43,329 nucleotides of DNA, taken from assembly GCA_017609915.1 (NCBI GenBank), contig JAFCDA010000006.1, forward strand, positions 1 through 43,329, in the 5' to 3' direction. The translations under genes and the position numbers were made by a program. This document shows, piece after piece, positions 29,448 to 34,312 of the stretch. Origin of the DNA: Candidatus Pacearchaeota archaeon (GTDB lineage Archaea > Nanobdellota > Nanobdellia > Pacearchaeales > GW2011-AR1). The notes under the pieces were generated by a model. It made no database searches, was not told the DNA's origin, and saw nothing but the letters and a program-made list of their open reading frames with translations. Positions within the stretch are counted from its first letter, which is position 1. Every line of letters begins with the position of its first letter.

Positions 29448-30446
29448 TCAATACTCCATCTCAATCCTTAATTCCATTAAACAAAAAACAAACTTACTTA
29501 TCTGCATTAAATGTCCCCTTATACTATTAGAATCTTTATTTCCAGACTCTTTCCATTTAAAATGATCATTATAAATTTTAAAATCATTTTCTCCAAACTT
29601 AATTGCCATTTCTCGATTAAATTTATAAAACAAATGATAATACATTTCAAAATGTTCTTTAATTGTTTTAGCAAAGTCTAAAATTTCATCTACATTTTTT
29701 TTAGATTTTGCTAGATGATTCCCTATATACTTAAACTCGTCACTTAATAATTCTAATAAAAATAAAGTAGAAAACATAACTGGTTTATTTTTCTGAAAAC
29801 TTGAATCATTTATTTTACTATTAATTCTGCAGCAATAATCTATAAATCTATCTATATTAGTATCCATTGCATGTAAGGTTTTACAAATACTTATATCCCC
29901 AATCTTATTTTTCTCAATTAAACTAATAATTTTATCAAATAATTCTAAGATTAATAAAAAAATTCTTCTTAAAGAATTATCAAATTCTTTACTAGTTAAT
30001 TCTCCCATCTCCCTAATAGTACAATAGTTCTCACCATGATCTATTATTTCTAATCCTATAAATCTATTTACTAATCCTCCAATCATATCTAAAACAGGCT
30101 TTTTAATAGGTTTTTCTCCCATTCTTGAATATTCAAACTGAGAAGCATAATAATTATAAGCATCTTCATATCCTACTTTATTAGGATCGTATATTAATTT
30201 AATCTCATTATAACCTTCCCTATAAGCAGACTGAAAAAATCTCCATAACATAGGAACACTAAATCCTGTTATATCTATTACAGTACTTTTATGTTTTCCA
30301 TTTTGTTTTCCACCAATAATTAAACTACCAGAACTCTCATTAACTTCTAATTCATCTCCAGGTTTAATATTTAATTTTTTAACCCACTCTGAAGGTAAAG
30401 TCATTGTCAAGGTATTATGCCCTTGTTTAATGATTCTTCGTTTCAT
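29448..30446 (-). CDS. AbrB/SpoVT-like DNA-binding domain with PhoU-like C-terminal region
   Basis: MKRRIIKQGHNTLTMTLPSEWVKKLNIKPGDELEVNESSGSLII then helical PhoU-like region. Confidence 0.75.
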   Translation of the reverse strand: MKRRIIKQGHNTLTMTLPSEWVKKLNIKPGDELEVNESSGSLIIGGKQNGKHKSTVIDITGFSVPMLWRFFQSAYREGYNEIKLIYDPNKVGYEDAYNYYASQFEYSRMGEKPIKKPVLDMIGGLVNRFIGLEIIDHGENYCTIREMGELTSKEFDNSLRRIFLLILELFDKIISLIEKNKIGDISICKTLHAMDTNIDRFIDYCCRINSKINDSSFQKNKPVMFSTLFLLELLSDEFKYIGNHLAKSKKNVDEILDFAKTIKEHFEMYYHLFYKFNREMAIKFGENDFKIYNDHFKWKESGNKDSNSIRGHLMQISKFVFCLMELRIEMEY

Positions 30447-30541
30447 TTTCTTATAAATACCAAGATAAGATATATTTAAAGCTTTCTCAATATATACAAT
30501 AGTGAAAATATAGTAATATATATCCTATAGGGGAGAATATC

Positions 30542-30575
30542 TTATATAAGAAATATATTGACAATTAATAAATTT
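30542..30575 (+). promoter_or_regulatory. shared promoter motif, copy 1
   Basis: TTATATAAGAAATATATTGACAATTAATAAATT. Confidence 0.55.
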
Positions 30576-30595
30576 TAAGTTTCTTTTTTATAAAC

Positions 30596-31723
30596 ATGGT
30601 TATTTTATATAAAGAAAAAGCAGTTTTTTGCGAGGAGAATTCTGAGAGAATAAAAAATATAATAAAATCTAGAAGAGACCCTAAAAAATTAGCAATAATT
30701 TCTCCATCATTTATTTCAATGGACCTTACATGGGGATGTAATTACAATTGTCTTGGTTGTTTAGAAGAATGTGTAAATAAAGAGAATAATAACCTACCTT
30801 TAGAAATTATTGAGGATATATTCACTTATAGTAACAAGCATAAAATAAGGGGTATAATGGTAATTGGAGGGGAGCCTTTTTTATATGAAAAAGGCATTAA
30901 AAAAACTTTAGAAAAAAGTATAGAATATCAAATTCCTTTAAAAATAGTAACTAATGGAAGCCACTTAGGGAAAAATCTTGATTTAATAATTAATGCATTT
31001 CAAATACCTAGTTCTAGATTAAGAGTATCAATAAATTCTAATATAGAAAATTACAAGAAACAAATAGGAAATAAAAATAACTTAAAAAAGATATTAAAAG
31101 ATATTAAAAATATAACTTCAAAAGGGATCCCTTTAGTTATTTCAACAGTTGTCTTTCCTGAAGAATCAATAAAAGATAAAACAATTCCAAATGTAGATCA
31201 AATTAAAGAGATAATTAAATATTGTCAAAAATCAGGTGTTAAAGAATATATCCTTCTTCCTGCAAGAGACCCTAAAACTAAAAAAAGATATCATAGGAGT
31301 AAAAGAGATAAGGATAAATTATGGGAAATAAGAAGAAACAAATATGAAAATTTAAGAATAAAAATGGATGATATTTTATGTGTTGGAAAAACTCCAGTTA
31401 AAAATAAAAACTTTTTTTGTTGTCCTTCAAGTTTTTTAACAACACTAATAGGGCCGAATAAAAAAATATATAAATGTACTGATAGTAGGGGGAAAGAATC
31501 AATGGTTATAGGAAAAATAGAAAAACCAGGAGATTTTGAAAAATTCTGGCATTCTGAAGAAAGAGTAAAAAAACAACTAAAAACAAAGTGTCCTAATGGG
31601 GGGTGTGGAAGAGGTAAAATAAATTCAATCATGAATAGTTCTTGTGAAACTTTTATGAAGTACAATATAGATTTAAGTGATTATCTAATTCAGAAACAAG
31701 AAGAAAAAGCTATATTCATATAA
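30596..31723 (+). CDS. radical SAM protein with C-terminal Cys-rich (SPASM-like) region
   Basis: LTWGCNYNCLGCLEEC; CCPSS...YKCTDSRG...CPNGGCGRG...SSCETF. Confidence 0.85.
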   Translation: MVILYKEKAVFCEENSERIKNIIKSRRDPKKLAIISPSFISMDLTWGCNYNCLGCLEECVNKENNNLPLEIIEDIFTYSNKHKIRGIMVIGGEPFLYEKGIKKTLEKSIEYQIPLKIVTNGSHLGKNLDLIINAFQIPSSRLRVSINSNIENYKKQIGNKNNLKKILKDIKNITSKGIPLVISTVVFPEESIKDKTIPNVDQIKEIIKYCQKSGVKEYILLPARDPKTKKRYHRSKRDKDKLWEIRRNKYENLRIKMDDILCVGKTPVKNKNFFCCPSSFLTTLIGPNKKIYKCTDSRGKESMVIGKIEKPGDFEKFWHSEERVKKQLKTKCPNGGCGRGKINSIMNSSCETFMKYNIDLSDYLIQKQEEKAIFI

Positions 31724-31798
31724 TCTTCATATTATTCTAAAAATCACTATATTGTATATTCTAAGCGGTAACAAATATCCTCCCAATTCTCAAATATA

Positions 31799-31831
31799 TT
31801 ATATAAAAAAAATATTGACAATGAATATATT
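31799..31831 (+). promoter_or_regulatory. shared promoter motif, copy 2
   Basis: TTATATAAAAAAAATATTGACAATGAATATATT; 29/33 identical to copy 1. Confidence 0.55.
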
Positions 31832-31874
31832 CTCAGATGTATTTTATATGATAATTAAATAAATTGGAGGAAAA

Positions 31875-32066
31875 ATGGAAATTTACAAGACAATAAAAAG
31901 AATTGCTTCAAACACCCCAAAGATTGCGGCAATCGGTCTTTTTATGGCAATACCTTACGTCTGTGAAAGTTGTGGTTACTCTGGAAAAAAAGTAAGTGCT
32001 TCAGAAATAATACCAAGAACATCCCAAATACAAACAGAAACTCTTGAAGCAGTTTTAGAAAAATAA
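31875..32066 (+). CDS. small peptide (63 aa), candidate radical SAM substrate
   Basis: SD-like GGAGG at 31866-31870; MEIYKTIKRIASNTPKIAAIGLFMAIPYVCESCGYSGKKVSASEIIPRTSQIQTETLEAVLEK. Confidence 0.65.
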   Translation: MEIYKTIKRIASNTPKIAAIGLFMAIPYVCESCGYSGKKVSASEIIPRTSQIQTETLEAVLEK

Positions 32067-32081
32067 ATTTTTTTATAAAAA

Positions 32082-33173
32082 ATGAAACAAATAAACTCAG
32101 CAATAGCTTTAGAAAATCCTAAAATAAATTTAACAAAAAATCAAAAAAGATTTCAAAAATTCTTAAATAGAGGAACTCCTCCTTATGAAAAGATTCTTTT
32201 AAAATATCATGAAAAAAGAATTTTAGCAATTTTAAAAGGAGAAATCATCCCACCTCAAGAATTAGAAATACAACCTTCTTCTAAATGCAACCTAAAATGC
32301 ACTCATTGTTTTGGAAAAACTTTAACAAATAAAAATCTTGAAAATAAAATAGGAGAAAAAGAAATGGAAATTCTAGCAGAAAGAATAAATAACTATAAAG
32401 AAGGAGATTTTGAAATAGAATCTGTTAAATTTTGTGGAACCACTGGTGAACCTTTAATAAATCCTGCAATGATTCATGGAATAAATCTTTTCAAAGATCT
32501 TGGAAAAAATATTGTTGTTTTTACAAATGGATTATATTTAGATAAATTCTATCAAGGAAAAAAATACTCAGACATAAACCGGTTAAATGTAAGTTTAGAT
32601 GCAGGTTCAGAAAGAACTTTTATGAATTTAAAAGGAAGAGTTGGATTTAGCAGGACAGTAAAAAGCTTAGGAGAATTAATTGAAAAAAGAAATGGAAAAC
32701 TAAAAGTAAATGTAAGTTATGTTATTAGTGAAAAAAATACAAAAGAAATAGTTAAAACAACAAAATTAATGGATGATTTAGGAGTAGATGAAATTAGATT
32801 TAGAGTTGATATAACTAATCCAGAAAAAATACATGCTCTTTCAGGTTTAATAATTTCTGAACTAAATAAAGCAAAAGATTATTCAAAAAAACATATTAAA
32901 GTAGCTTCAGTATATTCTCCAAATGAAATAAAAGAAGATTCTATATTTCATTCTCATGGAAAAAGATGTTTTACCCAACATTTATGGGCTTGTGTTGGTC
33001 CGGATTGTAATCTATATGCTTGTGGGCATAGAACATATCATGGAATAGAATCTTATGGAAGTTTATTAGATAATTCTTTCAAAGAATTATGGACAAGTGA
33101 AAAAAGATTAGCAAACTTAAAAAATCTCCCAATGACTTTTCTTGATAGCATAAAAAATGGAAAAAACAATTAA
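32082..33173 (+). CDS. radical SAM protein with C-terminal Cys cluster
   Basis: IQPSSKCNLKCTHCFG; KRCFTQHLWACVGPDCNLYACGH. Confidence 0.87.
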   Translation: MKQINSAIALENPKINLTKNQKRFQKFLNRGTPPYEKILLKYHEKRILAILKGEIIPPQELEIQPSSKCNLKCTHCFGKTLTNKNLENKIGEKEMEILAERINNYKEGDFEIESVKFCGTTGEPLINPAMIHGINLFKDLGKNIVVFTNGLYLDKFYQGKKYSDINRLNVSLDAGSERTFMNLKGRVGFSRTVKSLGELIEKRNGKLKVNVSYVISEKNTKEIVKTTKLMDDLGVDEIRFRVDITNPEKIHALSGLIISELNKAKDYSKKHIKVASVYSPNEIKEDSIFHSHGKRCFTQHLWACVGPDCNLYACGHRTYHGIESYGSLLDNSFKELWTSEKRLANLKNLPMTFLDSIKNGKNN

Positions 33174-33704
33174 ATGGAAAAGCCAAAATTAAAACCAGGA
33201 CAAAAAGAATTTTCAATTTTATTAATACCAAAAGGAAAAACCTATAATGAACTTTCTTCATTAATAATAAGATTAAGTAATAAATATAATACTCCTATGT
33301 TTGAACCACACGTCACATTAATTGGTGGGTTTGATATAAGTAAAAAAGAGGCAATTTCTAAAACAAACAAGATAGCAGAAAATCTTAAACCATATTCAAT
33401 AAGAATCAATAATCCAATTTATCTTCATGAATATTACAAAAGCCTTTTTCTAAAAACAGAAAAAACAAAAGAAGTTCTAAAAGCCCATCTTTTAGCTAGG
33501 AAAATTTTTAATGATAAAAGAGATTATGAATATTTTCCACATTTAAGTTTAATGTATGGAAATTCTTCTGATCAAATAAAAGAGAAAATAATTTCAGAAA
33601 TAAAATCAATCAACTTAGAATTTAAAGCAGATCAACTTCATCTTTTCTCTACAGCAAATGGACCTAAAAATTGGTATAAGATTAAAACTTATGATTTAAA
33701 TTAA
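33174..33704 (+). CDS. 2H phosphoesterase (LigT/CPDase-like)
   Basis: Two HxT/S motifs: EPHVTLIGGF and FPHLSLMYG. Confidence 0.8.
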   Translation: MEKPKLKPGQKEFSILLIPKGKTYNELSSLIIRLSNKYNTPMFEPHVTLIGGFDISKKEAISKTNKIAENLKPYSIRINNPIYLHEYYKSLFLKTEKTKEVLKAHLLARKIFNDKRDYEYFPHLSLMYGNSSDQIKEKIISEIKSINLEFKADQLHLFSTANGPKNWYKIKTYDLN

Positions 33705-34045
33705 TCACCAATTAATCTCTCTATTTTAGGTTTATAAATAAGCTCTCTTAAACTCTCATAAATAAATTGTCTAGCAGAACTTTTTTTATGCTCCAAATCA
33801 CTTCCTTTAGGAAAAAATGAATAATGAGTTTTAAAACCTGATTCATTAAGTTGTCTATTTGATAAATCCCTAACACCTTCACAATATTCTCCCCCTCTTG
33901 CCATTTCATTCCAATTAACAGAAACCCCTACAGAAGTTTCAAGTTTTCCAGGCTCTGAATTATAAAAAATTATCTTATAAGGGATTTCAATTTCTCTTCC
34001 CCTTTCCCTAAATATCGCCTTTTTTTTAAACTCCCTAAACACCAT
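33701..34045 (-). CDS. hypothetical protein (114 aa)
   Basis: Complete ORF, convergent with preceding gene. Confidence 0.5.
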   Translation of the reverse strand: MVFREFKKKAIFRERGREIEIPYKIIFYNSEPGKLETSVGVSVNWNEMARGGEYCEGVRDLSNRQLNESGFKTHYSFFPKGSDLEHKKSSARQFIYESLRELIYKPKIERLIGD

Positions 34046-34093: not shown

Positions 34094-34204
34094 TTATTTC
34101 CCTCTTCTCTGCTTTCTCTTTTTCTTAACACGTTTAAGTCTTTTTCTCTGCCATTTCCATCTCATCTGACGTTTCTTTTTCCATCTTCTACTTGAACGTT
34201 TCAT
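34094..34204 (-). CDS. very basic small protein, possible eL41-like ribosomal protein with N-terminal extension
   Basis: MKRSSRRWKKKRQMRWKWQRKRLKRVKKKRKQRRGK; C-terminal part resembles eL41; alternative start at 34165. Confidence 0.45.
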   Translation of the reverse strand: MKRSSRRWKKKRQMRWKWQRKRLKRVKKKRKQRRGK

Positions 34205-34312
34205 AAAACATGAAGAAAAATTTGCTTTATAAATGTTCTCAAAAAGATAAAATAACATCCAACCATAATAATCTTTATAAAACAAATTAGCCATAAATCA
34301 TATACTCTTAAA

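Follow-up and report, generated by a model that had tools for sequence, protein, structure and literature searches.

A rare AbrB-PhoU-linked radical SAM locus with a short cysteine peptide gene in a Pacearchaeota archaeon

The 43,329-nucleotide contig JAFCDA010000006.1 of Candidatus Pacearchaeota archaeon (assembly GCA_017609915.1), referred to here as the window, carries between positions 29,448 and 33,704 a compact locus of five genes: a divergent AbrB-PhoU regulator gene, a first radical S-adenosylmethionine (SAM) gene (rSAM1), a gene for a 63-residue peptide, a second radical SAM gene (rSAM2) and a 2H phosphoesterase gene (Table 1). A previous examination of the nucleotide sequence by itself (the sequence-only reading) had proposed a peptide-modification locus resembling the systems that mature ribosomally synthesized and post-translationally modified peptides (RiPPs), and it placed all five genes at the coordinates and on the strands found here. 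Much of its description is borne out. Both radical SAM proteins contain a CX3CX2C motif (CNYNCLGC in rSAM1 and CNLKCTHC in rSAM2) and exceed the Pfam cut-off for PF04055, the peptide gene is preceded by a GGAGG Shine-Dalgarno-like site and separated from rSAM2 by 15 bp, and the phosphoesterase gene abuts rSAM2, the stop codon TAA being followed directly by ATG. Comparison genomes and loci are designated below by G and L numbers, respectively.

The peptide is composed of a basic start, a hydrophobic stretch, the segment PYVCESCGYSG and a polar tail, with a possible AxA cleavage site after VSA. With its Cys motif directly after the hydrophobic stretch, the sequence looks like an export-type start joined to a Cys segment. 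Homologues are located directly 5' of an rSAM2 homologue in G019 (58% identity) and G009 (48%), and the three-way alignment contains 27 invariant positions, including PY.CESC.Y.G and the C-terminal LE..LEK end; the lack of conservation beyond the start codon that the sequence-only reading had named as fatal to its proposal is therefore not seen. Since the homologues stand beside rSAM2 and the peptide is under purifying selection (ratio of nonsynonymous to synonymous substitution rates, dN/dS, 0.30-0.41), the open reading frame (ORF) is a real gene rather than a chance occurrence. Diversification under positive selection was considered and ruled out (dN/dS <0.5).

Two more distant rSAM2 loci, in G127 and G219, also show peptides of like layout (basic start, hydrophobic stretch, Y..C..C) directly 5' of rSAM2, of 57 residues (SLPYACNNGCATYG) and 65 residues (AAYCNPGCSILPYS), respectively. 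A sixth such peptide, of 68 residues, is found in G145, at the end of a contig and in divergent orientation to AbrB-PhoU. The peptide gene thus directly precedes rSAM2 in five of the twelve rSAM2 loci, four times at a distance of 15, 26, 15 or 3 bp and once overlapping it at TAATG. When 415 kb of comparison loci were scanned for peptide-type ORFs (45-80 residues, with a ribosome site, a basic start, a hydrophobic stretch and then Cys), four were returned, each directly before rSAM2; because the criteria were taken from the peptides themselves, the scan demonstrates specificity without being an independent test. A profile search of 186 family genomes for relatives of the peptide gave only the three known copies, the weaker matches being short and partial, and a model of the peptide alone was uninformative (predicted local distance difference test, pLDDT, 56).

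The rSAM2 family is rare: a profile search of 378 genomes of the class, together with a scan of 85,462 species genomes, identified about twelve loci, all in metagenome-assembled genomes of DPANN-type archaea labelled Pacearchaeota, Woesearchaeota, Nanoarchaeota or uncultured archaeon. In the family alignment the auxiliary Cys set consists only of C..GX4C..CX2C, a single-cluster, twitch-type pattern; a twitch domain holds one cluster and a SPASM domain two (PMC9012708). Only about 50 residues, forming three helices in the model, lie N-terminal to the radical SAM core. The best NCBIfam match of rSAM2 is TIGR04317, at 82.4 bits below the cut-off of 380, and the best score of rSAM1 is 53.2 bits (cut-off 265); neither protein reaches the curated cut-off of any named NCBIfam radical SAM equivalog. 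Among solved structures, the sequence neighbours of rSAM2 are MoaA (the best PDB match, 8.6e-10), YydG and SkfB, while the family model (pLDDT 82) matches DesII best in fold, followed by SuiB, SkfB, the anaerobic sulfatase-maturing enzyme (anSME) and BlsE (TM 0.61/0.69). A sister group of rSAM2 (L076 2420-3571, L077 7426-8580, L122 2420-3547) shows a parallel pairing of regulator and radical SAM protein: in the genomes seen, its upstream neighbour is a fusion of a ribbon-helix-helix protein with a nucleotidyltransferase.

Compared with G009 and G019, the rSAM2 gene of the window has lost 51 bp, coding for 17 residues that include the last CxxC, a segment kept in full-length relatives; the reading frame is preserved across the deletion. 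The single auxiliary-cluster ligand pattern, which the family possesses by sequence, is consequently absent from the window's own copy, so the C-terminal Cys cluster previously assigned to both radical SAM proteins is not complete in this one. Loss of the Cys pair may impair the enzyme. In the assembly of G009, which keeps the CxxC segment, one contig ends at exactly this base and overlaps another by 100 bases (L072 3595; L073 1-100), which suggests that both alleles were present in the G009 sample. Further 5' in the G009 gene a deletion breaks the reading frame, rSAM2 of G395 is split, and that of G019 is intact.

The rSAM2 stretch has undergone a recent exchange, bounded between the peptide and the enzyme: synonymous divergence (dS) between the window and G009 is 0.15 for rSAM2, compared with roughly 0.8-1.0 in the flanks (AbrB-PhoU ~0.97, RFC 0.79) and 1.19 for the peptide; the phosphoesterase gives 0.38. 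Such an exchange accounts for the 94% identity of rSAM2 between the two genomes as against 48% for the peptide. For the same pair, rSAM2 has a dN/dS of 0.19. The AbrB-PhoU and rSAM2 trees conflict, with good support, over the position of G057 (the G406 row of the AbrB-PhoU tree, which was out of frame, was disregarded), and cargo and regulator have therefore been reshuffled.

The divergent neighbour of rSAM2 is an AbrB-PhoU gene in every rSAM2 locus except L171. The AbrB domain is detected in all 18 members of the regulator family and PhoU in 8 of the 18 (best 3.4e-7), in agreement with the original assignment; at that threshold the window's copy shows AbrB only, and its PhoU domain is assigned by homology. 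A palindrome with the core CACTAGTG lies upstream of the AbrB-PhoU genes, in window 30447-30600 and the equivalent regions of 20 loci, and its consensus ATATATTCACTAGTGAAAATA recurs in the upstream region of almost every AbrB-PhoU relative, whether rSAM2 is present or not; it is likely to be an autoregulatory operator. A second element, AATATATTGACAA-N3-ATAAATTC, occurs 5' of both rSAM1 and the peptide gene in the window, as well as 5' of the first gene in most rSAM2 or peptide loci, and is likely to represent a TATA box with an adjoining operator. The 13-base core of the motif before rSAM1 occurs in exact form nowhere else in the window's genome, and eleven genomes together contain six exact matches, five at the rSAM2 locus and one inside a gene. 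A regulon extending past the locus was rejected, as the one-mismatch and near-match sites fetched were nearly all intragenic. The distribution of the motif suggests that the regulator acts on no locus other than its own divergent one.

AbrB-PhoU relatives without rSAM2 (L200, L195, L196, L202) head other, varied loci. The cargo of such loci includes radical SAM genes (B12-type among them), Gfo/Idh/MocA oxidoreductases, a GH17-like secreted protein, a phosphogluconolactonase-like gene and a methyltransferase, which suggests that in these archaea AbrB-PhoU proteins are local switches of accessory loci of varied content, radical SAM genes being present in several.

The 2H phosphoesterase contains both HxT/S motifs (HVT and HLS) and matches PF07823 at 51.3 bits (cut-off 21); its closest solved structure is the cyclic phosphodiesterase (CPDase) 1FSI. 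The gene is present in 4 of 184 family genomes, in three of them directly behind rSAM2 and in the fourth in an unrelated setting. The linkage of both the regulator and the phosphoesterase genes to rSAM2 is thus upheld. Literature searches found no paper joining radical SAM and 2H phosphoesterase, nor one describing a radical SAM peptide system in DPANN archaea, an absence that such searches leave unproven.

rSAM1, by contrast with the other members, does not belong to the conserved set, although the sequence-only reading had counted it as a core member. The 378 class genomes contain no rSAM1 homologue besides its own, and its one close homologue, in G040 (54%), lacks an adjoining peptide; membership in the conserved set was thereby ruled out, and the gene is a lineage-specific addition. 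In its place between AbrB-PhoU and rSAM2, G009, G019, G057 and G127 have small CxxC..YCxxxC proteins. Zinc-finger-like proteins of this kind (65-78 residues, matching no Pfam family above cut-off) are found repeatedly next to AbrB-PhoU genes.

Table 1. Positions of the genes and DNA elements of the locus (window coordinates) and of small cysteine proteins in comparison loci.
Feature	Position	Strand	Evidence
AbrB-PhoU regulator, 332 aa, divergent	29448..30446	-	AbrB/MazE domain 1e-10; adjoins rSAM2 in 11/12 rSAM2 loci
Palindrome-like candidate operator ATATATACAATAGTGAAAATA	30490..30510	.	19/21 vs consensus ATATATTCACTAGTGAAAATA
Promoter-side motif AATATATTGACAATTAATAAATTT, 5' of rSAM1	30552..30575	+	20/21 vs consensus
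rSAM1, radical SAM protein, 375 aa, lineage-specific	30596..31723	+	PF04055 2.9e-17
Promoter-side motif AAAATATTGACAATGAATATATTC, 5' of 63-aa peptide gene	31809..31832	+	
63-aa peptide	31875..32066	+	Homologues in G019 and G009; dN/dS 0.3-0.4
rSAM2, twitch-type radical SAM enzyme, 363 aa, without last CxxC	32082..33173	+	PF04055 4.8e-12; family alignment
Junction of 51-bp deletion in rSAM2	33131..33132	+	Comparison with G009 and G019
2H phosphoesterase, CPDase-like, 176 aa	33174..33704	+	PF07823 1.6e-13; 1FSI 1e-9
Small CxxC/YCxxxC proteins	L071 7039-7236; L072 1562-1786, 2127-2351; L075 7265-7501; L119 8185-8388; L195 5462-5665; L200 5359-5586		

The locus is real, rare and coherently regulated; it is not a confirmed RiPP system, and modification of the peptide is plausible and unproven. 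The reading that we tentatively prefer, with a probability of roughly 0.4, is that of an AbrB-PhoU-controlled accessory locus in which rSAM2 modifies the co-encoded, exported peptide; the linkage of genes and regulator, the reality of the peptide, the DNA motifs and the deletion are observed, and substrate, chemistry, export and regulator binding are what we infer. The binding sites of the divergent regulator would be the palindrome and the promoter elements of TTGACAA type. Once the locus is switched on, the short peptide, with its export-type hydrophobic start and its Cys/Tyr segment, would be made together with rSAM2, and the twitch-type enzyme would modify that segment before export. Judging from its linkage, the cyclic-phosphodiesterase-like protein would work in the same pathway, and rSAM1 would be a local addition in the window's lineage, preceded by a promoter element of the same kind. 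Peptide modification is favoured by the five peptides tightly coupled upstream of rSAM2, and is supported by the purifying selection on the peptide, the AbrB-PhoU linkage, the motif at the locus, the occurrence of the phosphoesterase almost only behind rSAM2, and the presence of the peptide-modifying YydG, SkfB, SuiB and anSME among the sequence or fold neighbours of the enzyme. A fuller version of the proposal, doubtful as a whole, is that of a new kind of archaeal modified peptide, restricted to DPANN archaea and subject to an AbrB-PhoU switch specific to the locus: an exported short peptide whose Cys/Tyr segment, adjoining its signal stretch, would be modified by a dedicated twitch-type radical SAM enzyme, with a cyclic phosphodiesterase taking part.

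Several observations weigh against peptide modification. No short peptide is found beside rSAM2 in seven of the twelve loci (G406, G473, G457, G395, G026, G057 and L171), and beyond the three close genomes the peptides are alike in layout more than in sequence. The Cys segment adjoins the export-type stretch, which is unusual for a modified core. A full SPASM domain with two auxiliary clusters was not detected (PF13186 at 14.3 bits, below the cut-off of 21.5), the seven ORFs of the locus gave no match in Pfam or NCBIfam to a RiPP recognition element (RRE, PqqD-like), and the locus contains no protease or exporter. The missing RRE is not decisive, since some known maturases lack one. The best fold match of rSAM2, DesII, is a nucleotide-sugar enzyme. 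Of the RiPP-type scheme of the sequence-only reading, the recurrent pairing of rSAM2 and peptide stands, and the SPASM assignment does not; relatives with rSAM2 and without the peptide, which it had named as a refutation, do exist, and this counts in part against its proposal.

In a close, somewhat less probable rival explanation, rSAM2 acts on a small molecule (e.g., a nucleotide-sugar or sugar phosphate), as do DesII, BlsE, MoaA and other twitch-type enzymes, the 2H phosphoesterase would handle a cyclic phosphate by-product, the regulator would sense phosphate or sugar phosphate, and the peptide would be a separate small exported (lipo)protein cargo. The loci without a peptide, the fold matches to DesII and BlsE, the single auxiliary-cluster pattern of the family and the CPDase-like neighbour all argue for it, as do the Gfo/Idh/MocA, phosphogluconolactonase-like, methyltransferase and B12-type radical SAM genes of other AbrB-PhoU loci. 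It leaves the tight Cys peptide 5' of rSAM2 in five genomes unexplained, however, and the rSAM2 loci themselves contain no sugar-nucleotide genes. Alternatively, rSAM2 might modify exported proteins generally, whether short peptides or larger secreted proteins, before their export, in the manner of anSME, which is among its fold matches. The peptide-free loci often carry a signal-bearing protein, as in G026 (289 residues), G057 (278 residues) and G406 (275 residues), and those of G026 and G057 adjoin rSAM2 (L074 8887-9756; L075 9927-10763) and are homologous (33% identity, no Pfam match). These secreted proteins, however, share no common motif beyond the signal, and none is found beside rSAM2 in G473, G457, G395 or L171; we rate this explanation as rather improbable.

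We consider it scarcely probable that the locus is decaying in the window's lineage, rSAM2 being broken in the window and in G009 and the cluster functionless here. The loss of the CxxC segment from the window, the frame-breaking deletion of G009 with its contig break at the window's deletion base, and the split gene of G395 speak for such decay, but the frame of the window's rSAM2 is preserved, its dN/dS against G009 is low, and breaks of this type can arise from short-read assembly of mixed strains.

Beyond the phosphoesterase gene lies a convergent ORF of 114 residues (window 33701-34045) that overlaps its end by 4 bases and has no family match. It is followed by a short, very basic ORF (window 34094-34294) ending in MKRSSRRWKKKRQMRWKWQRKRLKRVKKKRKQRRGK and kept in G009 and G019, which we take to resemble ribosomal protein eL41; an internal ATG is probably its true start.

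The genomes of DPANN archaea are small, and few biosynthetic loci have been described in them. In this regard, the locus offers a compact, testable set, in which a radical SAM enzyme that is itself rare stands with a dedicated AbrB-PhoU regulator, a cyclic phosphodiesterase and a short Cys peptide that looks exported. Like the radical SAM RiPP maturases YydG, SkfB and SuiB, to which it is similar in sequence or fold, rSAM2 has a radical SAM core, an auxiliary Cys domain and, in five of its twelve loci, a short peptide gene directly upstream; unlike those systems, the locus lacks an RRE, the seven-Cys SPASM set and an exporter or protease, and its peptide has an export-type start and is missing from most rSAM2 loci. 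The twitch-type small-molecule enzymes DesII, BlsE, MoaA and BtrN share the Cys pattern for one auxiliary cluster, with DesII the best fold and MoaA the best PDB sequence match, whereas identity to them is very low (13-19%), none of their pathway genes is in the locus, and rSAM2 is coupled to a peptide gene. The best NCBIfam match, the tungsten cofactor oxidoreductase radical SAM maturase TIGR04317, is reached with a score far below its cut-off, and no tungsten oxidoreductase adjoins rSAM2. As in known CPDase/2H phosphoesterases, both HxT/S motifs and the similarity to PF07823 and 1FSI are evident, although the copy at this locus is coupled to a radical SAM gene. Finally, the regulator resembles the archaeal AbrB-PhoU fusion regulators in its AbrB N-terminus and PhoU domain, but appears, from the distribution of its motif, to be confined to its own divergent locus.

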